Source: Piscinibacter caeni
GTDB taxonomy: Bacteria > Pseudomonadota > Gammaproteobacteria > Burkholderiales > Burkholderiaceae_C
Reading direction: 5' to 3'
Assembly (NCBI GenBank): GCA_003265685.1
Contig: QJOU01000001.1
Coordinates: 124,001-188,000 of the forward strand
Length of the DNA: 64,000 bases
The notes under the pieces were generated by a model. That model worked only from the letters and a program-made list of their open reading frames with translations. It searched no databases and was not told the origin of the DNA. Position numbers and translations under genes: made by a program. Position 1 is the first letter of the stretch, and each line of letters begins with the position of its first letter. Shown here one piece after another: positions 53,752-64,000 of the stretch.

Positions 53752-54363
53752 CTACAGCGACTGCAGGTAGGCCGCCACCGCCTTCATCTGCGCCTCGTTC
53801 ATCGCGCGCACCTCGTTCTTCATGATCACGCCGTGCGGGCGCAGCGGCGTCTTGAACACCTTGAGCTGGCGCACGATGTAGTCGGCATGCTGGCCCGCCA
53901 GGCGCGGGAAGCCGGTCTGGCCCTCGGCCTTGTCGCCGTGGCACGAGGCACAGGCGCGCACGCCGAGCGCCGGCAGGCCCTTCTCGAAGATCGCCTTGCC
54001 CTGGTTCATCAGCGCGGGGTTGCCCGCCCGCCCGGGGCGCGGCTCCTGCTTCGCGTAGTAGTCGGCCAGGCCCTCGATCGCGCCGTCGGTCAGCAGCGCG
54101 GAAACGCCGTACATGTAGGCCTGCACGTCGGTCTCGGCGCGCGACTTGTCGCGGAAGTCCTTCAGCTGGCGGATCGTGTACTCGCGTGCCTGCCCGGCCA
54201 GCGCCGGGAAGCGCGAGTCGTTGCTGCGCCCGAAATCGCCGTGGCAGGTGGCGCAGACGTGCACCGCACGCTGCACCAGTTCGTCGTCTGCGCTGCCGGC
54301 CGCCTGCGCCAGCGGCGCGAACAGCGCGGACACCAGCAGGCTGCCCAGAACCGTCTTCTTCAT
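53752..54363 (-). CDS. Cytochrome c4-type dihaem protein
   Basis: A 203-residue exported cytochrome with signal peptide MKKTVLGSLLVSALFAPLAQA and two haem sites, CATCH (37-41) and CASCH (138-142), each followed by a FPALAGQ/FPRLAGQ segment and distal Met regions (YMYG, VIMKNEVRAMNE). The repeat structure is that of cytochrome c4. It can pass electrons in the periplasm, here possibly from quinoprotein dehydrogenases to oxidases. A GAGGGGA site precedes the ATG. Confidence 0.93.
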   Translation of the reverse strand: MKKTVLGSLLVSALFAPLAQAAGSADDELVQRAVHVCATCHGDFGRSNDSRFPALAGQAREYTIRQLKDFRDKSRAETDVQAYMYGVSALLTDGAIEGLADYYAKQEPRPGRAGNPALMNQGKAIFEKGLPALGVRACASCHGDKAEGQTGFPRLAGQHADYIVRQLKVFKTPLRPHGVIMKNEVRAMNEAQMKAVAAYLQSL

Positions 54364-55160: not shown

Positions 55161-58073
55161 TCAAGGCGCGATCTTCTTCAGCCACTCGAGCGCCGGGTGG
55201 CGTGCGCCGAGCTTGCGGCTGCGGTAGCCGGCGTACAGCTCGGCGAACCACTCGCCGGGCGCGCGGAACTGGTAGCCGGTCAACCCCTTCTTGCGCTCGC
55301 TGGCCGGGTAGCTGACCCAGACGCGCGGGTAGGCCTCGTGGTAGATCGTGTCGCCGATCGTCAGCGTGTTGCAGGCGGCCTGGTCCTTGTAGACCTCCGC
55401 CCGGCCGGCCAGCTCGCGCCACTGCACGATGCCCTGGCGCAGGTCTTCCCAGGTGAGCCCGCCTGGCGCCGCGGCCTTCGGCTCCGGCGGCGGCGCGCTC
55501 GGCGTGTTCAGGATCAGGTCGAGCACGTACTGGCGTTGCTCCGCGGTCACGAAGCCGTAAGACGCGGCCACCGCGTCGGCGATCGGCTTCACCGCGGTGC
55601 CGTAGGTCTTCCAGTTGCCGTACTTGGGGTCCTGCTCGTGCCGCGTCATGAAGCGGTGCCGGTCGTCCAGGCCGTGCCCGGCCTCGTGCAGCGTGGCCCA
55701 GTTCAGGCGCTCGACCGGGTTGGTGTTGGCCGGCTGGAAGTCGCGCTCGACGGCGGGCAGCTGCGGCCGATTGGTGCCGCGCACCGTCAGGTCGGCGCCG
55801 AAGCGCTGCTTGTCGGCACCGCCGGCCGCGCTGCCGAGCGCGATGGTCGCCGCCTGCGCCTGGTACTCGTCGTCCGCCGAATCGGCGTCGGTGTGGGTCA
55901 CGCGGCGCAGGCTCGGGCCGGCCTGCACGTCCTGCGGCGGCAGCTTCGCCAGCGTCTGGCTGATCACCTTCAGTGCCCGGATCTCGCCGGCCTGCGGTGA
56001 CCACGCGTCGAGCGTGAACTCGAGCCCGTGGCGCGCCCGGGCGATGGCCGTCATGGCCTTGGCGCTGCCCTTCTCGGGGAAGTCGGCGATCAGCTTCTCG
56101 AGGGCTGCAGCCCCGCCGTTCTTCATCATCCGCTCGGCTGCCGCCGCCAGGGCCGGATCGTCGGGCTTGCTGGCCGACAGGCTGCGCACCGTGGCCTCGT
56201 CGATGCGCACCTTGATTGCGGCCAGTGCGCGGTTCGCCTCGGCGAAGCGCAGGGCGTCGGCCTGGGACAGCGCCGCCTTCGCCAGCGCGGCCAGCTGGGC
56301 GCGGAACTTCGGGTCGGCGACCGCCTTGACCAGGCCATCCACGTTGCGCGCCTCGGTGTCGAACCGGCGCCGTTCGACGGCCGCCTGCTCGACGAGGCCC
56401 GCCGCATCGTCGGCGCGCTGCAGCGCCGCCAGCGCGGCCGCCGCGTCCGGCAGCTTGATCCGGGCCCGCGCGTCGGCCAGCGCGGCATCGACCGGCGCGA
56501 GCCGGGCCTTCAGTGCGGCCGCGGACGGCAGGCTGTCGAGGGCCTTGCGGCGGGCCTCGCTCTTCGCCAGCGCCGCATCGAACTGGCCGTGCTGTACCTG
56601 GGCGCGGCGCGCTGCCGCGAGGTGCTGCGCCGCCTCGCCCAGCCGGGCCAGCGCCGTCTTGCCTTCGCCTTGCTTGAGCGCGGCATCGACCTGGCCGGCG
56701 CTCGACGCGAAGTGGCGCAGCTCGCCGGCGGCGTCGGCCGCGAAGGCGGTCTTGCCCGCCGCGTCGGCCTGGGCGCGCAGCGCGGTCAGGCTGTTCTGCA
56801 GGCCGGTGAGGTCGGTGGCGTTGCCGGCCAGCGCCTGTGCCTTCAGGATCGGCCCGCGGCTCAGCGCGAGGTCCTTCAGACGCGCCAGCTCGACGCTGGC
56901 GCGCGCCACGCCGTCGTGCCCGGCACTGTAGCCCGCCGCCAGGTCACCGCCGGCCTCGGCGCGGGCCACCATCGCCGCCGAGTCGGCGAGCAGCTTGTCG
57001 ATCGCGGCGCGCTCTGTGGCGAGCGACTTGGCGGCGGGATCCTTGGCCAGTGTCGCGGCATCGCGCAGCGCGGCGGCGCGCAGCTGATCGTAGGAGGCGA
57101 CCCAGGACGAGATCGAGAGCCAGACCTCGCCGCGTTCGGCCGCCTGCTGCAGCAGGCGCATCGCCTCGTCGAAGCCCATCTCGGCCGGCGTGGCCAGCGT
57201 GTCCGCACGGCTCAGCAGCGCCTGCAGCGGCGCGGCGCGGGGGCCCATGCGGGGCACGGCCTTGAGGCGGTCCAGCGTGTCGGCGGTCTTGCGCCGCTGC
57301 GCGTCGAAGGCCTCGCGGCGCTCCATCATGTGGGCGGTCGGCGCGAGGGTGCCGAGCGCCCGCCTGGCGGCCATCACCACCAGGCCCCAGGTGTTGCTGG
57401 AGACCGCGCCGTCCATCTGCACGATCAGCCTGTCGACCTGGGCCAGGTCGGCCGCCGCGAAGTTGCGCAGCGGCGCGCCCTTGGCCTGCAGCGCCGCGCG
57501 CACCCGCTTGACCTCGTCGACCAGCGGCTGCAGCAGCTGGCGCAGCAGCACGATGGATTTCTTCAGCTCCTCGATGCCGGAGATCGGCTTGGGCGGCGTG
57601 CCGTAGGCGATCTTGTCGATGCGCTTGAGCTCGTCATCGACCACCTGCTGCAGCTTCGGGTCCTCGATGCCCTTCAGCGCCTGGCTCATCGCGTCGAGCG
57701 TGGCGCGCGCCTTGACGTACTCGATGAAGTAGTTCGCCAGGTTCTGGGTCGCGGCGAGCTTCTCGCTCGCCTGCCGGAGCCACTCGCTCGCCGCCGTGGG
57801 GTCGCCCCGGCGCGCGGCCTCGCGGCCCTTGTCCAGCAGGCCCGCGACCTCGCCGATCTGCGCCTGCACGCGGGCCTGCTGCGGGTGGCGCCGCAGCGCG
57901 TCGAGCCGGGCGCGCACCGGCGCGCTGGCGTCCGCGTAGTCGTGGTCCGGATCGCCCGGGCCCGCATCGGCGACACGCACCGGCCGCGGACTGTGCGCGG
58001 CGGCGCCGCCGATGCCGGCAGGCGCACGCTGGCGTGTCGGCAGCAGTCCGAGCGCTTCGAGCAGTCGTCCCAC
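55161..58073 (-). CDS. Large Ala-rich helical protein with C-terminal lethal-factor-like metalloprotease motif
   Basis: A 970-residue protein. Residues 1-700 are Ala/Leu-rich helical segments of about 80-90 residues that look like diverged repeats (for example LARLGEAAQHLAAARRAQVQ and DAAAALAALQRADDAAGLVEQA). The C-terminus contains NWATLHEAGHGLDDRHRFM (HExxH at about 794) and EWFAELYAGYRSRKLG (about 943), the two zinc-binding motifs of ATLF-type proteases. GTG at 58073 is chosen because GGAG lies 5 bases upstream; a GTG at 58124 is possible. No signal peptide. Substrate unknown; an effector is one possibility. Confidence 0.72.
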   Translation of the reverse strand: MGRLLEALGLLPTRQRAPAGIGGAAAHSPRPVRVADAGPGDPDHDYADASAPVRARLDALRRHPQQARVQAQIGEVAGLLDKGREAARRGDPTAASEWLRQASEKLAATQNLANYFIEYVKARATLDAMSQALKGIEDPKLQQVVDDELKRIDKIAYGTPPKPISGIEELKKSIVLLRQLLQPLVDEVKRVRAALQAKGAPLRNFAAADLAQVDRLIVQMDGAVSSNTWGLVVMAARRALGTLAPTAHMMERREAFDAQRRKTADTLDRLKAVPRMGPRAAPLQALLSRADTLATPAEMGFDEAMRLLQQAAERGEVWLSISSWVASYDQLRAAALRDAATLAKDPAAKSLATERAAIDKLLADSAAMVARAEAGGDLAAGYSAGHDGVARASVELARLKDLALSRGPILKAQALAGNATDLTGLQNSLTALRAQADAAGKTAFAADAAGELRHFASSAGQVDAALKQGEGKTALARLGEAAQHLAAARRAQVQHGQFDAALAKSEARRKALDSLPSAAALKARLAPVDAALADARARIKLPDAAAALAALQRADDAAGLVEQAAVERRRFDTEARNVDGLVKAVADPKFRAQLAALAKAALSQADALRFAEANRALAAIKVRIDEATVRSLSASKPDDPALAAAAERMMKNGGAAALEKLIADFPEKGSAKAMTAIARARHGLEFTLDAWSPQAGEIRALKVISQTLAKLPPQDVQAGPSLRRVTHTDADSADDEYQAQAATIALGSAAGGADKQRFGADLTVRGTNRPQLPAVERDFQPANTNPVERLNWATLHEAGHGLDDRHRFMTRHEQDPKYGNWKTYGTAVKPIADAVAASYGFVTAEQRQYVLDLILNTPSAPPPEPKAAAPGGLTWEDLRQGIVQWRELAGRAEVYKDQAACNTLTIGDTIYHEAYPRVWVSYPASERKKGLTGYQFRAPGEWFAELYAGYRSRKLGARHPALEWLKKIAP

Positions 58074-58147
58074 GTGGACTCCCGGTGGCAGACGGCCCAC
58101 TGTAGCGAGGCAGCCCCGCGGCACATCCCTAGCTCAGGCGCCGCGGG

Positions 58148-58672
58148 TCATTGCTCCAGGCGCAGGATCTCGAGCTGCTCGGGCACCGTCTCGAAAGTGC
58201 CGGTGCCGGCGGGCATCTGCATCAGCGGCTTGCCCTCGCCGTCGAGCAGCCAGACGCTCGGGTAGACCAGCTGGCGCACGCGCTCGTCGCCGATCTTCTT
58301 CATGAACTCGGTGTAGCCCCAGCTCTGCGTGCCGATGCGAAAGCGCAGCCGGTCGGCCTGCACCTTCAGGCTGCTGCGCAGGTCGTAGAGCAGCCAGTCC
58401 TTCTGGAAGTGGGGCAGCAGCGCGTCGACGTTCTTGTCGAGGAAGGCCTCGTACTTGCGGCAGAACGGGCAGTCGTTCGCGCCCAGGTAGACGTAGAGCT
58501 TCTTCTTCTCCGCCCGCGCGCGGGCGAGCGCCGGGCCGAGGTCGAACTCGTACTGCTCGGGCAGCCCCTGCGGCTGCACGACGGTGGCGCCGTAGCGCGG
58601 CGGCAGGCCGATCGCCCAGGCCGCGCCGGCCGCCAGCAGCAGCGGCACGGCGAGCGCGGCGCGGCGCCTCAT
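58148..58672 (-). CDS. Exported thioredoxin-like protein (SoxW type)
   Basis: A 174-residue thioredoxin-fold protein with signal peptide (MRRRAALAVPLLLAAGAAWA) and the redox motif ANDCPFCRKYE (Cys 68 and 71). It ends with a LVYPSVWLLDGEGKPL strand including the cis-Pro region. In Sox systems SoxW keeps the carrier protein reduced; here it would act on the SoxYZ-like proteins encoded upstream. ATG overlaps the upstream stop by 4 bp. Confidence 0.82.
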   Translation of the reverse strand: MRRRAALAVPLLLAAGAAWAIGLPPRYGATVVQPQGLPEQYEFDLGPALARARAEKKKLYVYLGANDCPFCRKYEAFLDKNVDALLPHFQKDWLLYDLRSSLKVQADRLRFRIGTQSWGYTEFMKKIGDERVRQLVYPSVWLLDGEGKPLMQMPAGTGTFETVPEQLEILRLEQ

Positions 58673-59496
58673 GAGGAGGCCGAGACCATCAGCGTGCCGA
58701 CGAAATGGCCGTCCTTCGAATCGGTCACCTCGGCGCGCAGCTCGCCGTCGCCGTGCGGAACGAAGTTGAAGCGCAGCGTCGGGTTCTCGCTGACCGAGAA
58801 GTCGAGCTCGGCGTCGAACACCTTGCGCTGGGCATAGCTGACCTTGATCGAGCGCACGAAGTGCGGCGGGATGTACATCACCGTCTGCTGGTTCAGCTCG
58901 AATCCGGTGTCGTTCGGGTGCACCACGGTCACGTCGGCCGGCGTGGGCTGCTCGAGCTTCACGCCGGCGGGCAGCTTGAACATCGTGCGGCCGATCAGGT
59001 GCAGCGCCTCGCGGTTGGGCGGCGCGGAGCAGCCGCCGGAGGTCTTCACGTAGCGCGAATCGGTGTGCAGCGAGCCGTCGCTCAGCTCGCCGACCACGCG
59101 CACGTGGCTGTACTCGTCCACGCGCAGCCGGGTCTCGAAGTCGGCCTGGCCGATCTCGGTGGTCAGGTCCAGTACCGCGGCCACCGGCGAGGGGTTCTTG
59201 TCCACCACGACCCACAGCCGCTTGACGTAGCGCTCGGGCCGCTGCGCCAGCAGCGAGGTGATCTTCACCGGTACCGAGGCGCCGTAGGCGGCGCGCAGCG
59301 GCGCGGCGACCTGGATCACGTCGCGCCCGGCGCGCAGCGGGCGGCCGGGGAAGAGCCGCGCCGACAGCTTGTCCCATTCGGGCGAGGAATCCTCGTGGCG
59401 GGCCGAGGGCAGGCCGCCTTCGGCCGCCCAGGCCGGCAGCGTGACGGCGGCCAGGCCGGCGAGGGCGTGGCGGCGGGACAGGCGCAGCGGTTTCAT
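58669..59496 (-). CDS. Quinoprotein-associated SoxYZ-like carrier, copy 1
   Basis: A 275-residue fused SoxY-SoxZ-like protein. The N-terminus has an apparent Tat signal (LSRRHALAGLAAVTLPAWA). The SoxY part (about 45-165) ends near KTSGGCSAPPN, whose single Cys 156 corresponds to the substrate-carrying Cys; the SoxZ part (about 170-275) includes IPPHFVRSIKVSYAQRKVFDAELDFSVSENPTLRF. This fused form occurs next to PQQ enzymes rather than thiosulfate oxidation. Its cargo is unknown. Paralogous to the protein at 61975. Confidence 0.83.
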   Translation of the reverse strand: MKPLRLSRRHALAGLAAVTLPAWAAEGGLPSARHEDSSPEWDKLSARLFPGRPLRAGRDVIQVAAPLRAAYGASVPVKITSLLAQRPERYVKRLWVVVDKNPSPVAAVLDLTTEIGQADFETRLRVDEYSHVRVVGELSDGSLHTDSRYVKTSGGCSAPPNREALHLIGRTMFKLPAGVKLEQPTPADVTVVHPNDTGFELNQQTVMYIPPHFVRSIKVSYAQRKVFDAELDFSVSENPTLRFNFVPHGDGELRAEVTDSKDGHFVGTLMVSASS

Positions 59497-60464
59497 CGTG
59501 ACGGCTCCGACTTGAAGATCAGCTCGCGTTCGAAGCGCAGGAACGCGACCGAGGCGTTGCGGCGGTGAATGATCTCGTATTGATCCCAGGCTTCATAGTC
59601 TGGCAGATCCGCAGCGTCAGCCACGTTGATCAGCGACGCACCCGATTCGACCAGCGCGCGGGTCTTCTTCTCCAGGGCCGCCAAGTAGGTCTGGACGGCG
59701 CCGATGGCGGCGCCGGGCTCGGACAGCGGGCCGTGCCCGGGCACGACCCGCCGCGCGCCGACCTCGCGCAGCCCGGCCAGCGCCCGGTGCCAGCCGGGCA
59801 GCTCGCTGTCCTGGATGTCGGGCACGCGTCGAACGTCCAGCAGGCCGCCGGCGAACAGCACCCCGCTTTGTACGTCGAGCACCGCGATGTCGCCCGGGCC
59901 GCTCGAGTGACCGAAGTACAGCACCCGCACCGGTCGGCCGATCAGGTCCAGCGTCTGCGCGGCGTCGAAAGTACGGTCGGGCTTGTAGACGTGGCTGCCC
60001 TGCATGGCCGGCTCGCCGGCGACCTGGCGCAGCGTCTTCAGGCAGGTCTCGCAGCGCGAGGCCATCAGGCGCGCGCTGCGCTCGTGCATCGCCACCGGGA
60101 TGCCGCGCGACTGGAAGGCCGTGCCGCCGAACAGGAACTCCGGCCGCACGTGGGTCACCAGCGCGAGCCGCACGGGCTGGTCGGTCACGCTGGCGATCGC
60201 CTCGAGCAGCGCCTGGCCGTGCGCATGCGAGGTGCCGGTGTCCACCACGATCACGCCCTGCGGCCCGACGATGAAGCCGCTGTTGCCGATGCGCCCGAGG
60301 TTGGCCGCGTCGGCTGCGCCGGCGCTGCCTTCGAACATGTAGACGCCGGGCGCGAGCGCGACCGGCCGCGGCCCGCGCGGCGTCACGCTCGCGCAGCCGC
60401 CCAGCGCGGCCAGCAGGCCGAGGCCGAGCAGTGCCGTCCAGGCACGCCACCAGGTGCTGATCAC
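59493..60464 (-). CDS. Quinoprotein-system metallo-beta-lactamase-fold lipoprotein (SoxH-related) with altered metal motif
   Basis: A 323-residue lipoprotein (lipobox LGGC, Cys 24). The fold is recognisable: VIVVDTGTSHAHGQALLEAI, VLYFGHSSGPGDIAVLD, GVLFAGGLLDVRRVPDIQD and RRVVPGHGPLSEPG. The motif that binds zinc, usually HxHxDH after ALVT, reads HVRPEF (105-110), so two or three ligands are lost. A CETC pair at about 138-141 is extra. It overlaps copy 1 of the SoxYZ-like gene by 4 bp. The change may mean a non-hydrolytic role. Confidence 0.8.
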   Translation of the reverse strand: MISTWWRAWTALLGLGLLAALGGCASVTPRGPRPVALAPGVYMFEGSAGAADAANLGRIGNSGFIVGPQGVIVVDTGTSHAHGQALLEAIASVTDQPVRLALVTHVRPEFLFGGTAFQSRGIPVAMHERSARLMASRCETCLKTLRQVAGEPAMQGSHVYKPDRTFDAAQTLDLIGRPVRVLYFGHSSGPGDIAVLDVQSGVLFAGGLLDVRRVPDIQDSELPGWHRALAGLREVGARRVVPGHGPLSEPGAAIGAVQTYLAALEKKTRALVESGASLINVADAADLPDYEAWDQYEIIHRRNASVAFLRFERELIFKSEPSR

Positions 60465-60471
60465 GGCGCGC

Positions 60472-61002
60472 CTACTTGCCTTCGACGATCTTCTTCAGGT
60501 TCGCCAGGCCCGACTGGTAGACGCCGGTGATGGCGGCCACCGCGGCCTCGTCGTTCTGGTCCGGCGGCGGGTCGTTGTTCGGGTAGCCGCGGTAGAAGGC
60601 GCCGCGCCACTCGACGACGGCCTTGTTGCCGTCGGCCTTGACGCTGATCGTCGAGGTGTAGTTCGTTACCGGCAGCGCGCCGCCGTCCTTGGCGCGGTAG
60701 CTGTAGCGCATCTTCGCGTCGTCCCAGGCCTCCAGCGTCTCGGTCAGCTTGCCGCCGTTCTTCAGCTCGAGCTGGCGCACCGAACCCTCCTCGTTGCCCT
60801 TGTCGGCCGGGCTCCTTGCGACGGCGGGGTGCCAGTCCTTCAGCGCGTCGAAGTTGCGGATCTTCGCCCACACGGCGGCGGCGGGCGCGTCGATCGTCAC
60901 GGTCTCGGTCACCTTCTGGCGCGTCGGGCCGTGGGCCAGCGCGCCGGCGGCCGCCAGGCCGAGCGCGGCGGCCAGCAGCGTGCGGCGGGTGGAAAGCATC
61001 AT
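60472..61002 (-). CDS. Exported SRPBCC (START-like) protein
   Basis: A 176-residue protein with a signal peptide (STRRTLLAAALGLAAAGALAHG) and the SRPBCC fold: VTETVTIDAPAAAVWAKIRNFDALKDWHPAV, LTETLEAWDDAKMRYSYR and a C-terminal helix AVAAITGVYQSGLANLKKIVEG. The fold has a hydrophobic ligand pocket, so it may bind a small molecule such as a quinone in the periplasm. It lies 7 bp upstream of the SoxH-like gene. Confidence 0.8.
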   Translation of the reverse strand: MMLSTRRTLLAAALGLAAAGALAHGPTRQKVTETVTIDAPAAAVWAKIRNFDALKDWHPAVARSPADKGNEEGSVRQLELKNGGKLTETLEAWDDAKMRYSYRAKDGGALPVTNYTSTISVKADGNKAVVEWRGAFYRGYPNNDPPPDQNDEAAVAAITGVYQSGLANLKKIVEGK

Positions 61003-61030
61003 CGGGAGTCTCCGGGGTGGTTGATGGGGT

Positions 61031-61978
61031 TCATTCGGGCGCGCCGATGAAGGCGCCGAAGCCGCGGCTGTTGCGACCGGTCGGAATGCGCTCGAGCGCG
61101 CGGCCGCTGGCCGCGTCGAGCACGCTGACCTCGTCGTCCATCCAGTTGACGACGTAGACGCGCTCGCCGTGCGCCGCGATGCCCTCCGGGTAGCCGAAGC
61201 CGGGCAGGGTCTTGAGCACGCGCAGGCTGTCCGCGTCGAGCACGCTGACGCTGTCGGCATGCTGGTTGGTGACGTACAGCAGCCGGTCGCCGTCGGCCAG
61301 CGCGGCGCCGTAGGGTGCCTTGCCGACCTTGACGGTGTGCGTCACGCGCAGCGTCGGCAGGTCGATCGCGCTCAGGTCGTCGCTCTGCACGTTCAGCGCG
61401 AATAGCCGCCGGCGCGGCGCATCCAGCAGCAACGCGAACGGGTGCGTGCCGACCGCCACGCGCGCGCGGACGCGTCGCTCGACCAGGTCGACCAGCGCGA
61501 CGCTGTCGTCGTCGCGCTCGGCCACGTAGACGGTGCGGCCGTCCGGGTCGACGGCTACACCGGCCGGCGCGCGGCCGACAGCGATCTCCAGCGGCGGCTC
61601 GGCCGGGCGCCCCGCGTCGATCGCCAGCAGCCGGTTGCGGTACCAGTCCGCCACGAACACGGTGCGGCCGTCGGCCGACGCGCCGATGCCCACCGGCCCG
61701 GCGCCGGCCGGCAGCGTGTCGACCACGCGCTGCGTGCGCATGTCGATCACCGAGACGGTCTTGTCGTCCGGGTTCGAGACGTACACGCGGCCGGCCCGGC
61801 TGGCCGCCACCACGCCGGCCGGCGAGCGCCCGACCGGCACCGTGGCCACGACGGCATCCCGCGCCAGGTCGATCACCGACACGTCGTGGCTGCCCTGGTT
61901 GGTGATGTAGGCGAATGGCGCAGCCTGTGCCGCCGCCGCGCCCATCAGCAGCGCGAGCGCCGCGGCGTGCCGGCTCAT
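61031..61978 (-). CDS. YVTN-family beta-propeller protein, PQQ-associated
   Basis: A 315-residue exported protein with signal peptide (SRHAAALALLMGAAAAQAA) and repeated blades of about 42 residues: FAYITNQGSHDVSVIDL, VYVSNPDDKTVSVIDM, VFVADWYRNRLLAID, VYVAERDDDSVALVDL, LFALNVQSDDLSAIDL, LYVTNQHADSVSVLD and VYVVNWMDDEVSVLD. Seven blades make a complete propeller. Relatives accompany PQQ dehydrogenases and may scaffold them. The ATG overlaps the second SoxYZ-like gene. Confidence 0.85.
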   Translation of the reverse strand: MSRHAAALALLMGAAAAQAAPFAYITNQGSHDVSVIDLARDAVVATVPVGRSPAGVVAASRAGRVYVSNPDDKTVSVIDMRTQRVVDTLPAGAGPVGIGASADGRTVFVADWYRNRLLAIDAGRPAEPPLEIAVGRAPAGVAVDPDGRTVYVAERDDDSVALVDLVERRVRARVAVGTHPFALLLDAPRRRLFALNVQSDDLSAIDLPTLRVTHTVKVGKAPYGAALADGDRLLYVTNQHADSVSVLDADSLRVLKTLPGFGYPEGIAAHGERVYVVNWMDDEVSVLDAASGRALERIPTGRNSRGFGAFIGAPE

Positions 61979-62808
61979 CGCGGGTTGTCGCGCAGCGCCT
62001 GGGCGGCGACGAAGCGCAGGTCCTTGGAGTCGACCACTGTGGCGCGCAGTTCGCCGCCGCCGCCCTGCGGCAGGAAGTAGAAGCGGAAGTTCGGGTTCTC
62101 GCTCATCGAGAAGTCGACGTCGGCCGAGAGCACCGGCCGGCCGGCGTAGCTCACGTCGATCTTGCGCACGTAGTGCGCCGGGGTGTACTGGCGCGTGGCC
62201 TGGTCCATCGCCAGGCCGGAGTGGTTCGGGTGCTCGATGGCGAGCTGCGCCAGCACCGGCTCCTTGCCCTTCAGGTCGCCCTCGACCCGGAAGCGCATCT
62301 GCCCGAGCGTGGCCTGCGCCGCCGCGGCGTCCGAGCCGGCCGGTGCCGAGCAGCCGCCCGAGGCCTTGACGAAGCGCGTCACCATGTGCAGCTTGCCGTC
62401 GCTCGTCTCGGCGATCGCGCGCACATGCGAGTAGGCGTCGACGCGCACGCGGGTCTCGATGTCGGCGCGCCCGCTGTCGGGCGTGAACGAGAAGATGCCC
62501 GAGATCGGCGACGGGTTGGCGTCGATGATCAGGTACAGCTTGCTGATGTACCAGGCCGCGCCGGCCGGCACGCGGGTGCGGATCGCGATCGGCACCACCG
62601 CCGCGTCCACGGCCCGTACCGGCGCCTCGAGCTTGAGCAGCTCGGGCGCGGCCGGCTGGACCGGCCGGTTCTCGAACAGGCTGGCGCGCACCTTCTGCCA
62701 CACCGGGCTGGCGGCCGGGTCGTCGCCGGGCTGCAGCGTGGCGGCCGACGCGGCAGCGGCCAGCAGGGCGGCCGGCAGGGCGAGCAGGAAGCGGCGCAGC
62801 GTGTCCAT
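61975..62808 (-). CDS. Quinoprotein-associated SoxYZ-like carrier, copy 2
   Basis: A 277-residue paralogue of the protein at 58669, with a Sec signal (RRFLLALPAALLAAAASAA), SoxY-like part ending KASGGCSAPAG (Cys 153) and SoxZ-like part with YTPAHYVRKIDVSYAGRPVLSADVDFSMSENPNFRF. The two share the same architecture and motif spacing but differ in export signal, one Tat-like and one Sec. It overlaps the propeller gene by 4 bp and follows the small Cys protein by 8 bp. Confidence 0.83.
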   Translation of the reverse strand: MDTLRRFLLALPAALLAAAASAATLQPGDDPAASPVWQKVRASLFENRPVQPAAPELLKLEAPVRAVDAAVVPIAIRTRVPAGAAWYISKLYLIIDANPSPISGIFSFTPDSGRADIETRVRVDAYSHVRAIAETSDGKLHMVTRFVKASGGCSAPAGSDAAAAQATLGQMRFRVEGDLKGKEPVLAQLAIEHPNHSGLAMDQATRQYTPAHYVRKIDVSYAGRPVLSADVDFSMSENPNFRFYFLPQGGGGELRATVVDSKDLRFVAAQALRDNPR

Positions 62809-62816
62809 CGCGGCCC

Positions 62817-63176
62817 CTACTGCGGCGCGCCGATGAAGCAGGCCTTCTTCACCTTGGCCTGCAGGTTGCGCCAGCGGCTGAGCTGGGGCTTGACGGTCTC
62901 GTTGTCGCGCAGTTCGCTGCCGCGCTCGCCGCCGATCGAGATCGCCTTGACCACCGTGGTCATCTCGACGTAGTCGTCGAACTTGACCTCCGCGGCGACG
63001 CGGTCGGCCGCGCAGGAGCACTTGTTGACCATCTCGAAGTTCGGGCCGGGATGATCGCGCATGCACTCCTGCACGTAGAGCACGCGGTCGACGGTCGGGA
63101 AATCGTTGGCCTGCGCGAGGGCGGACAGCGCCAGCAGTCCGCCTGCGGCGAAGGCGAGGCGCGGGGCAAGTTTCAT
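62817..63176 (-). CDS. Small exported Cys-containing protein of the quinoprotein operon
   Basis: A 119-residue protein with signal peptide MKLAPRLAFAAGGLLALSALA and a short mature domain with four Cys (YVQECMRDHPGPNFEMVNKC, then SCAADR, and KKACFIG). The spacing suggests two disulfides. No domain is recognised. It is cotranscribed with the SoxYZ-like genes and could be a redox partner of the thioredoxin-like protein; that is inference from context. Confidence 0.72.
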   Translation of the reverse strand: MKLAPRLAFAAGGLLALSALAQANDFPTVDRVLYVQECMRDHPGPNFEMVNKCSCAADRVAAEVKFDDYVEMTTVVKAISIGGERGSELRDNETVKPQLSRWRNLQAKVKKACFIGAPQ

Positions 63177-63193
63177 GGGGCTCTTCTCGGGGG

Positions 63194-63865
63194 TCAGGGA
63201 TTGCGGTGGGCGCCGTCGATCAGCAGTTCCTCGACGAGCACCGGCTGGGCCGGGTTCGGGCCGTCGACGCGGGTGCGGATCGAGTAGACGCCGCCGGGCA
63301 CGGCGTCGGACAGCGTGAACTCGTAGGTCTTGCCGGCGAGCTGCTCGAAGCGGGCCTTGAGCGGGTCGTCGACATAGGGCGCGACGATGAACTGCCGCGC
63401 CGCCACCGGCTTGCCGCCGTACAGCACCGTCGCGCTCATCTCCTTGGCGCCCTGGAAGATCGCCATGCGGATGCGCTTCTGGAAGTAGGTCGACTGGCCC
63501 TTGGTCAGGCGCTTCATCTCGCGCACGTCGCGCTCGAGGAAGTACAGGATCACCGGGTTGCCGGTGGCTGCCTCGATCTCCGGCAGGTTGACCCGGTGTT
63601 CGCCTTCCAGGAAGTCGGCCGAGACGGCGCAGCAGGAGCCGTCGGCGGCCGGCTTCAGGTGCACCAGCACCGGTTCGGCGTAACCCGACTCCAGGCTGCC
63701 GGACTTGCGGAAGCCGTAGCGCAGCGTGGTCGGCGGCTTCATGGCCGCCAGGTGGTTGGTCATGAACAGGGCACGCTCGGCACTCGAGAAGTCGTCCGCC
63801 GCGCGGGTGGCGAGGGCGGCCGAGGCCAGAAGCAGGAGCGCGGCGAGCCGCGTCGGCAGGGACAT
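63194..63865 (-). CDS. Exported protein of the quinoprotein operon, function unknown
   Basis: A 223-residue protein with signal peptide (PTRLAALLLLASAALATRA) and a beta-rich mature part: FMTNHLAAMKPPTTLRYGFRKSGSLE, PAADGSCCAVSADFLEGEHRVNLPEI, TGNPVILYFLERDVREM and VPGGVYSIRTRVDG. A vicinal CC pair (about 80-81) is conspicuous. It is the upstream neighbour of the small Cys protein (17 bp). I do not recognise the family with certainty; similar proteins occur beside SoxYZ-like carriers. Confidence 0.7.
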   Translation of the reverse strand: MSLPTRLAALLLLASAALATRAADDFSSAERALFMTNHLAAMKPPTTLRYGFRKSGSLESGYAEPVLVHLKPAADGSCCAVSADFLEGEHRVNLPEIEAATGNPVILYFLERDVREMKRLTKGQSTYFQKRIRMAIFQGAKEMSATVLYGGKPVAARQFIVAPYVDDPLKARFEQLAGKTYEFTLSDAVPGGVYSIRTRVDGPNPAQPVLVEELLIDGAHRNP

Positions 63866-63881
63866 GCGCAAGGTGGGCCTT

Positions 63882-64000
63882 CTAGTGGTGGTCGGGCCGG
63901 CAATCGGCCGGCAGATCGGGATCGGTGCTGCGCGCGCGCAGCGCCTCGAGCTGCGCCCGCACCGCGGCATGGGCCGGCGCGAGGCGCAGCGAGCATTCGA
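63882..64000 (-). CDS. C-terminal end of an unidentified protein (partial)
   Basis: The frame read from the right edge ends at the TAG 63882-63884 with the sequence ECSLRLAPAHAAVRAQLEAL followed by a helical, charged tail ending DCRPDHH. Two other frames are also open, so the choice rests on composition. It lies 16 bp upstream of the next gene on the same strand, consistent with the operon continuing beyond the window. Family unknown. Confidence 0.4.
   Translation of the reverse strand, partial: ECSLRLAPAHAAVRAQLEALRARSTDPDLPADCRPDHH

Follow-up and report, generated by a model that had tools for sequence, protein, structure and literature searches.

A xoxF gene run of Piscinibacter caeni with two SoxYZ fusion carriers and a CxxC-bearing, metal-poor SoxH paralogue: a candidate periplasmic thiol relay

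Gene content of the run

The DNA analysed here is a 64-kb stretch of the Piscinibacter caeni genome (positions 124001-188000 of contig C1; the genome totals 6.87 Mb and is split into 310 contigs), called the window below; coordinates use its numbering unless a locus is named. Near its right edge lie eight contiguous minus-strand genes (58148-63865) encoding, among others, two SoxYZ-like carriers and a SoxH-like lipoprotein. All frames are open; three neighbouring pairs overlap by 4 bp and the others are 7, 28, 8 and 17 bp apart. An N-terminal hydrophobic signal was judged by eye to be present on all eight proteins. The initial annotation, made from the window's sequence, had described this exported, tightly packed set correctly. 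It had also tied the set to quinoproteins and suggested looking right of the window for xoxF and cytochrome genes, where we found a protease gene, xoxJ, xoxG and xoxF.

The eight genes are thus the downstream part of a twelve-gene xoxF run that continues past 64000, in the order xoxF-xoxG-xoxJ-protease-C222-C119-SoxYZ1-propeller-SRPBCC-SoxH-B-SoxYZ2-thioredoxin-like. All lie on the minus strand. The trypsin-like protease gene, whose 3' end is inside the window (63882-64000, reaching 64853 on the contig; Trypsin_2, 92.4 bits), is separated from its neighbours by 16 and 20 bp. It is followed by xoxJ (64874-65725; TIGR03871, 290.4 bits, cut-off 212), which overlaps xoxG by 4 bp (65722-66105; a small cytochrome c, its sequence beyond the window edge), and, 103 bp further on, by xoxF (66209-68032; 607 residues; TIGR03075, 717.6 bits, cut-off 480). 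The same gene order was found in a congener (G204) and in many Burkholderiales loci, and the arrangement is therefore not due to chance. We infer that the twelve genes form a single transcript. The identity of the locus as a xoxF gene run with carriers of family TIGR04557 is close to certain.

XoxF has vicinal cysteines at residues 131/132 and the motif DEWDFDGINE, which matches the additional-Asp pattern WD[FY]DG. The second Asp of this motif marks lanthanide use, and the enzyme is predicted from its sequence to be a lanthanide-type methanol dehydrogenase. The vicinal pair was present in 49/49 dehydrogenases whose alignment covers the site.

The SRPBCC protein (60472-61002; Pfam Polyketide_cyc2, 120.7 bits, cut-off 27.4) is presumably MxaD-like. 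The beta-propeller (61031-61978) has TIGR02276 repeats above cut-off and matches YNCE/YVTN models; its TIGR03866 score, 246.4 bits, is under the cut-off of 287.3. The mxaFJGI...D and xoxFGJ operons serve methanol oxidation in methylotrophs. They share XoxF, a cytochrome c, XoxJ and an SRPBCC protein with the run described here, but here a thiol module sits in the same gene run, together with the small proteins C119 and C222.

Two single-cysteine SoxYZ fusion carriers

Both carriers, SoxYZ1 (61975-62808; GGCSAP at 62341-62358, Cys153) and SoxYZ2 (58669-59496; GGCSAP at 59020-59037, Cys156), pass the curated TIGR04557 cut-off of 140 bits with 267.2 and 227.9 bits, respectively, as well as Pfam SoxY and SoxZ. 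Both fail the true SoxY model (67.2 and 60.7 of 125) and the true SoxZ model (49.2 and 54.3 of 76). Solved relatives up to an E value of 0.01 were SoxY and SoxZ chains only. The likeness to the Sox system (SoxYZ, SoxB, SoxAX, SoxCD) lies in the SoxY and SoxZ folds and in the arm cysteine after GG. However, SoxY of that system has a free C-terminal arm, whereas the carriers here are fused and GGCSAP is internal to the chain.

The nearest named carriers were from Piscinibacter assemblies (78 to 85% identity for the best three); named loci were compared for the best 80 of 586 relatives. The arm cysteine was present in 148/148 fused carriers from the fetched loci and was the sole cysteine of the carrier domain in 146 of them, in keeping with cargo bound covalently or with a mixed disulfide. 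SoxYZ2 belongs to a separate clade holding all 21/21 candidate second copies (support 1.0). A thioredoxin-like gene accompanies the second carrier in 18 of the 19 named two-carrier loci, and the nineteenth is a 13.2-kb contig (L100) that ends just past the second carrier. Two alphaproteobacterial loci (L046, L047) have a second carrier of another type. Downstream of an alphaproteobacterial carrier, at L050:11449-11859, lies a different thioredoxin-like frame, this one with CPIC; it looks as though redox partners were recruited more than once.

The carrier follows lanthanide-type dehydrogenases

We searched 299 Pseudomonadota genomes for the carrier, PQQ (pyrroloquinoline quinone) alcohol dehydrogenases, the lanthanide-type motif and SoxB. 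A carrier was counted when a match above cut-off had no internal stop, which excludes adjacent soxY-soxZ pairs read through and leaves 39 genomes of 50 raw ones. All 39 were among the 83 genomes with a PQQ dehydrogenase above cut-off (Fisher p = 6e-26), so that the operon is not, as would have spoken against the quinoprotein tie, one found mostly in genomes lacking such an enzyme. The profile of the carrier against dehydrogenase classes, another of the annotation's suggestions, sharpened the tie to lanthanide-type enzymes: the carrier occurred in 38 of 57 dehydrogenase genomes with the motif and in 1 of 26 without it (p = 3e-8), "without" meaning that the exact DNA pattern was not found, so that a divergent lanthanide enzyme would escape. 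In the source genome itself, xoxFGJ lies directly upstream. Counted by genus, the figures were 21/35 and 0/19; genus counts lessen, but do not remove, the inflation of these p values by shared ancestry. The sole motif-less carrier genome, G054, has two dehydrogenases at its carrier locus (L074), both with Ser or Thr at the lanthanide position.

The SoxH-like lipoprotein has lost metal ligands and gained a CxxC

The initial annotation had called the product of 59493-60464 a SoxH-like lipoprotein. The metallo-beta-lactamase fold and a lipobox-like motif (LGGC24, by eye) fit this, yet the protein stays under both quinoprotein-relay zinc metallohydrolase cut-offs (TIGR04559, 210.8 of 280; TIGR04558, 185 of 300). 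Its metal site reads HREFHGH against the intact HHDHHDH: three of seven ligands, all His, are kept and four are lost, with a CxxC (CETC, 60042-60053) instead. The ligand positions (HxHxDH, third His, Asp, fourth His) are named by metallo-beta-lactamase numbering. The proposed role of the lipoprotein as a processing hydrolase therefore found no support here.

We tabulated 154 SoxH-like sequences of more than 200 residues from the fetched loci, after dropping four short pieces; the fifth ligand was judged in a short local window owing to a small insertion. All seven ligands were kept in 89 sequences (SoxH-A), and none of these (0/89) had a CxxC in the domain. Sixty others had lost three to seven ligands, and in each of the 60 a CxxC occupied the same pair of alignment columns (SoxH-B, the type in the window). 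The CxxC group is a clade that contains 60/60 CxxC sequences and no others (support 0.82). The remaining five sequences are degenerate without a CxxC (NHDYHGH) and come from PedH-type loci of Burkholderiales (L063, L064, L065, L066, L068). The L063 protein scored 391 of 300 on TIGR04558 despite its degenerate site, so the label "zinc metallohydrolase" may mislead there. L068 is a second carrier locus of the source genome (G000:C27:50280-57191), where a PedH-type dehydrogenase with a lanthanide motif (WDFDGVNE) accompanies the SoxH with NHDY..G.H.

Model scans divided the two types in the same way. SoxH-A proteins beside XoxF or a carrier passed TIGR04559 (3/3) and two from PedH-type loci passed TIGR04558, whereas all six CxxC proteins scanned, among them the one from the window, failed both models. 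SoxH-B thus resembles the "quinoprotein relay system zinc metallohydrolase 2" of TIGR04559, to which SoxH-A belongs, in fold, neighbourhood and full-length alignment, but differs from it in score, ligands and the gained CxxC.

SoxH-A above cut-off was found in 25/39 carrier genomes and in 0/41 carrier-less dehydrogenase genomes, which argues that SoxH and the carrier act together. Both SoxH types occur together in 44 loci, and the CxxC type stands alone in 16. Whole-genome searches of 14 of these B-only genomes (the window genome, G204 and 12 named ones, several of the latter being metagenome bins that may be incomplete, whereas G204 is a single contig) gave no SoxH-A above cut-off (0/14), while positive controls with both types gave 8/8. 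SoxH-A above cut-off was also absent from a fifteenth, G274, which has a PedH-type locus (L065). The sixteenth locus, L103, runs into the edge of its contig within a truncated SoxH-A and was left out of the genome search. The B-only isolates include Rhizobacter sp. Root404, two Rubrivivax gelatinosus and Ideonella aquatica. Carriers in B-only loci all keep the arm cysteine, and with SoxH-A undetected in these genomes, it appears that the carrier can be retained without the zinc step and that its one remaining partner of the SoxH type is the CxxC protein. On a 38-tip XoxF tree, on which some nodes are weak, the SoxH states require four changes by parsimony.

C119, C222 and the thioredoxin-like protein

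The annotation had also pointed to two small Cys proteins, a description that suits one better than the other. C119 (62817-63176), a 119-residue exported five-helix protein (AlphaFold predicted local distance difference test, 83.7), keeps all four cysteines (38, 53, 55 and 113) in 66/66 relatives. In C222 (63194-63865), a 223-residue exported protein, the CC pair at residues 78-79 is found in only 31/57 relatives. Neither has a family match above cut-off. C222 bears a modest resemblance to the half-barrel proteins LolA, RseB and LprG, with which it may share a fold, and gave no sequence match above cut-off in Pfam or the PDB.

Both proteins were profiled in 80 dehydrogenase genomes, of which 57 have the lanthanide motif and 23 do not. 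C119 was present in 30/31 XoxF-motif genomes against 1/49 other dehydrogenase genomes, and in five of the six XoxF-motif genomes that lack the carrier. C119 and C222 would appear to belong to the XoxF core set and not to the carrier module.

The thioredoxin-like exported protein at the end of the run (58148-58672; 174 residues) is under every family cut-off (Thioredoxin_2, 21.1 of 27; Thioredoxin_7, 20.6 of 27), with its CxxC present as CPFC (residues 68-71; 58460-58471).

Neighbouring genes

The next minus-strand frame (55161-58124, up to 987 residues) has no family match above cut-off; HEAGH near its C-terminal part looks zinc-peptidase-like by eye. At 53752-54363 lies a 203-residue diheme c-type cytochrome (Cytochrom_C above cut-off), a relative of which is found next to this operon in several loci of Burkholderiales.

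Just past the window and divergent from xoxF, on the plus strand, is an ATP-binding cassette (ABC) set of the PQQ-dehydrogenase type (L003:4159-8307). Its ATPase, propeller and permease (PedC) exceed the cut-offs of TIGR03864, TIGR03866 and TIGR03861, respectively, and its binding protein is under that of TIGR03863 (367 of 413.6). A review of the ped cluster describes P. putida PedA1A2BC as transporting lanthanides (PMC12997753). Next on the same strand (L003:10877-17249) come a TonB-dependent receptor, a MoxR-type AAA ATPase and a VWA-domain protein (the last under cut-offs); judged by eye, the three may take part in lanthanide uptake or dehydrogenase assembly.

A thiol relay and its alternatives

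The annotation had called this system uncharacterised. This is true of its function, but the association of carrier and dehydrogenase is already in print: the carrier family TIGR04557 is named, and the ped review discusses the conservation of SoxYZ-like and SoxH-like proteins alongside lanthanide and PQQ dehydrogenases, notes that in M. extorquens such genes lie close to xoxFGJ together with a gene for a thioredoxin-like protein, and offers disulfide formation, cofactor stabilisation and PQQ protection as untested ideas (PMC12997753). In M. extorquens an MxaD homologue, orf6 and orf7 matter for La-dependent methanol growth, according to PMC7391723. The P. putida KT2440 ped cluster (PP_2666, PP_2677, PP_2678) and META1p1703-1705 of M. 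extorquens resemble the present locus in having a SoxYZ fusion carrier by a SoxH-like protein and a PQQ dehydrogenase. They differ from it in that the present locus has two carriers, a CxxC SoxH-B replacing the zinc hydrolase, and the proteins C119 and C222, everything being encoded in a single run that includes xoxFGJ, and in that no rhodanese gene was identified in the run. Our literature search found nothing on a CxxC SoxH paralogue, a missing hydrolase or C119.

We tentatively favour, from the sequences, the view that the carriers act for XoxF as a thiol relay in the periplasm, with the carrier reset by thiol-disulfide exchange in this lineage. By their sequences the thiol proteins line up as a series in one compartment: the CPFC thioredoxin-like protein, the CxxC SoxH-B, the single-Cys carriers, C119 with its four cysteines and the CC ring of XoxF. 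Read most economically, such a relay would clear an adduct from XoxF or its surroundings. In this scheme, whose every transfer step, direction and cargo we infer from the genes, their cysteines, the ligand losses and the co-occurrence, the GGCSAP cysteine would receive an adduct formed at the quinoprotein or close to it, whether on PQQ, on the vicinal disulfide or from the aldehyde product. In relatives, the zinc hydrolase SoxH-A would act on the carrier once it is loaded, whereas in this lineage the reset would run through the SoxH-B CxxC and the CPFC thioredoxin-like protein. It is possible, if doubtful, that the carrier chemistry was switched here, a duplicated zinc hydrolase having become a metal-poor CxxC protein that displaced the hydrolase in Piscinibacter/Rubrivivax-type bacteria and left a redox-driven relay, beside a four-Cys protein that is a near-obligate partner of XoxF.

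Several observations weigh against a relay of this kind. The carrier is absent from 6/31 XoxF-motif genomes, so XoxF does not need it everywhere. The window's SoxH-B retains three His ligands, and its CxxC could instead form a metal site with the remaining His and Glu. There are also loci (e.g., those of Thauera and Caballeronia) in which SoxH-B accompanies SoxH-A and a single carrier but no thioredoxin-like gene is present, so the link to thioredoxin is clade-limited. Disruption of the P. putida homologues is reported to give minimal phenotypes on short-chain alcohols without rare earths (PMC12997753). In the XoxF transposon screen, the genes displayed as having at least four hits do not include META1p1703-1705, which is the carrier locus of M. 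extorquens (PMC7391723).

Common ancestry with SoxY, SoxZ and SoxH favours explanations based on sulfur. A branch of Sox thiosulfate oxidation is hardly credible, in line with the initial annotation: both carriers are far under the true SoxY and SoxZ cut-offs, the sole SoxB above cut-off in the source genome sits on contig C32 beside separate soxY and soxZ, none above cut-off is linked to the run on contig C1 (soxAX and soxCD were covered only by the scans of the operon proteins), and the carrier occurs only with PQQ dehydrogenases across the 299 genomes. It is also unlikely, though far from negligible, that the carrier guards the enzyme by trapping sulfite or sulfane sulfur that would otherwise add to PQQ. 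The SoxYZ fold would then keep a sulfur-binding role, and SoxH or the thioredoxin-like protein would unload it. PQQ protection has been proposed, citing thiosulfate inhibition of Hyphomicrobium methanol growth (PMC12997753). SoxB above cut-off is commoner in carrier genomes (19/39 vs. 30/260 others, p = 3e-7), and the same tendency is seen among lanthanide-motif genomes (19/38 with the carrier vs. 4/19 without, p = 0.047). However, among lanthanide genera the link is not significant (10/21 vs. 4/14, p = 0.31), 20/39 carrier genomes have no SoxB above cut-off, and a guard alone leaves the restriction to lanthanide-type enzymes unexplained.

Two further alternatives start from the enzyme. The carrier could handle the product: formaldehyde from XoxF would form a thiohemiacetal on the carrier cysteine, then a thioester that the SoxH hydrolase releases, a protein-bound analogue of glutathione-dependent formaldehyde oxidation. 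The single reactive cysteine fits, as does a seven-ligand SoxH-A confined to carrier genomes, and M. extorquens XoxF1 produces formaldehyde (PMC6414531 and PMC7391723). We nevertheless consider this quite improbable, since all 14 searched B-only genomes keep two carriers with SoxH-A undetected, and no oxidising enzyme for the bound aldehyde was identified. Alternatively, the gene set might form or repair the vicinal CC disulfide of XoxF during biogenesis. The invariant pair and the nearly XoxF-specific, four-Cys C119 agree with this, and disulfide formation is suggested in the ped review (PMC12997753). But the same CC occurs in Ser/Thr dehydrogenases, whose motif-less genomes almost all do without the carrier, as do the six XoxF-motif genomes mentioned above, and we regard a maturation role for the whole set as unlikely. 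C119 alone could be a maturation factor.

The locus bears on two matters: the accessory proteins that lanthanide dehydrogenases require, and the function of the SoxYZ carrier associated with quinoproteins. Across the dehydrogenase genomes examined, C119 accompanies XoxF almost without exception. Because some cultured species, Rubrivivax gelatinosus among them, have apparently lost the hydrolase, the chemistry can be tested: a mechanism that depends on hydrolysis should fail in them. If the chemistry is confirmed, replacement of a hydrolase by its own CxxC paralogue would surprise specialists.

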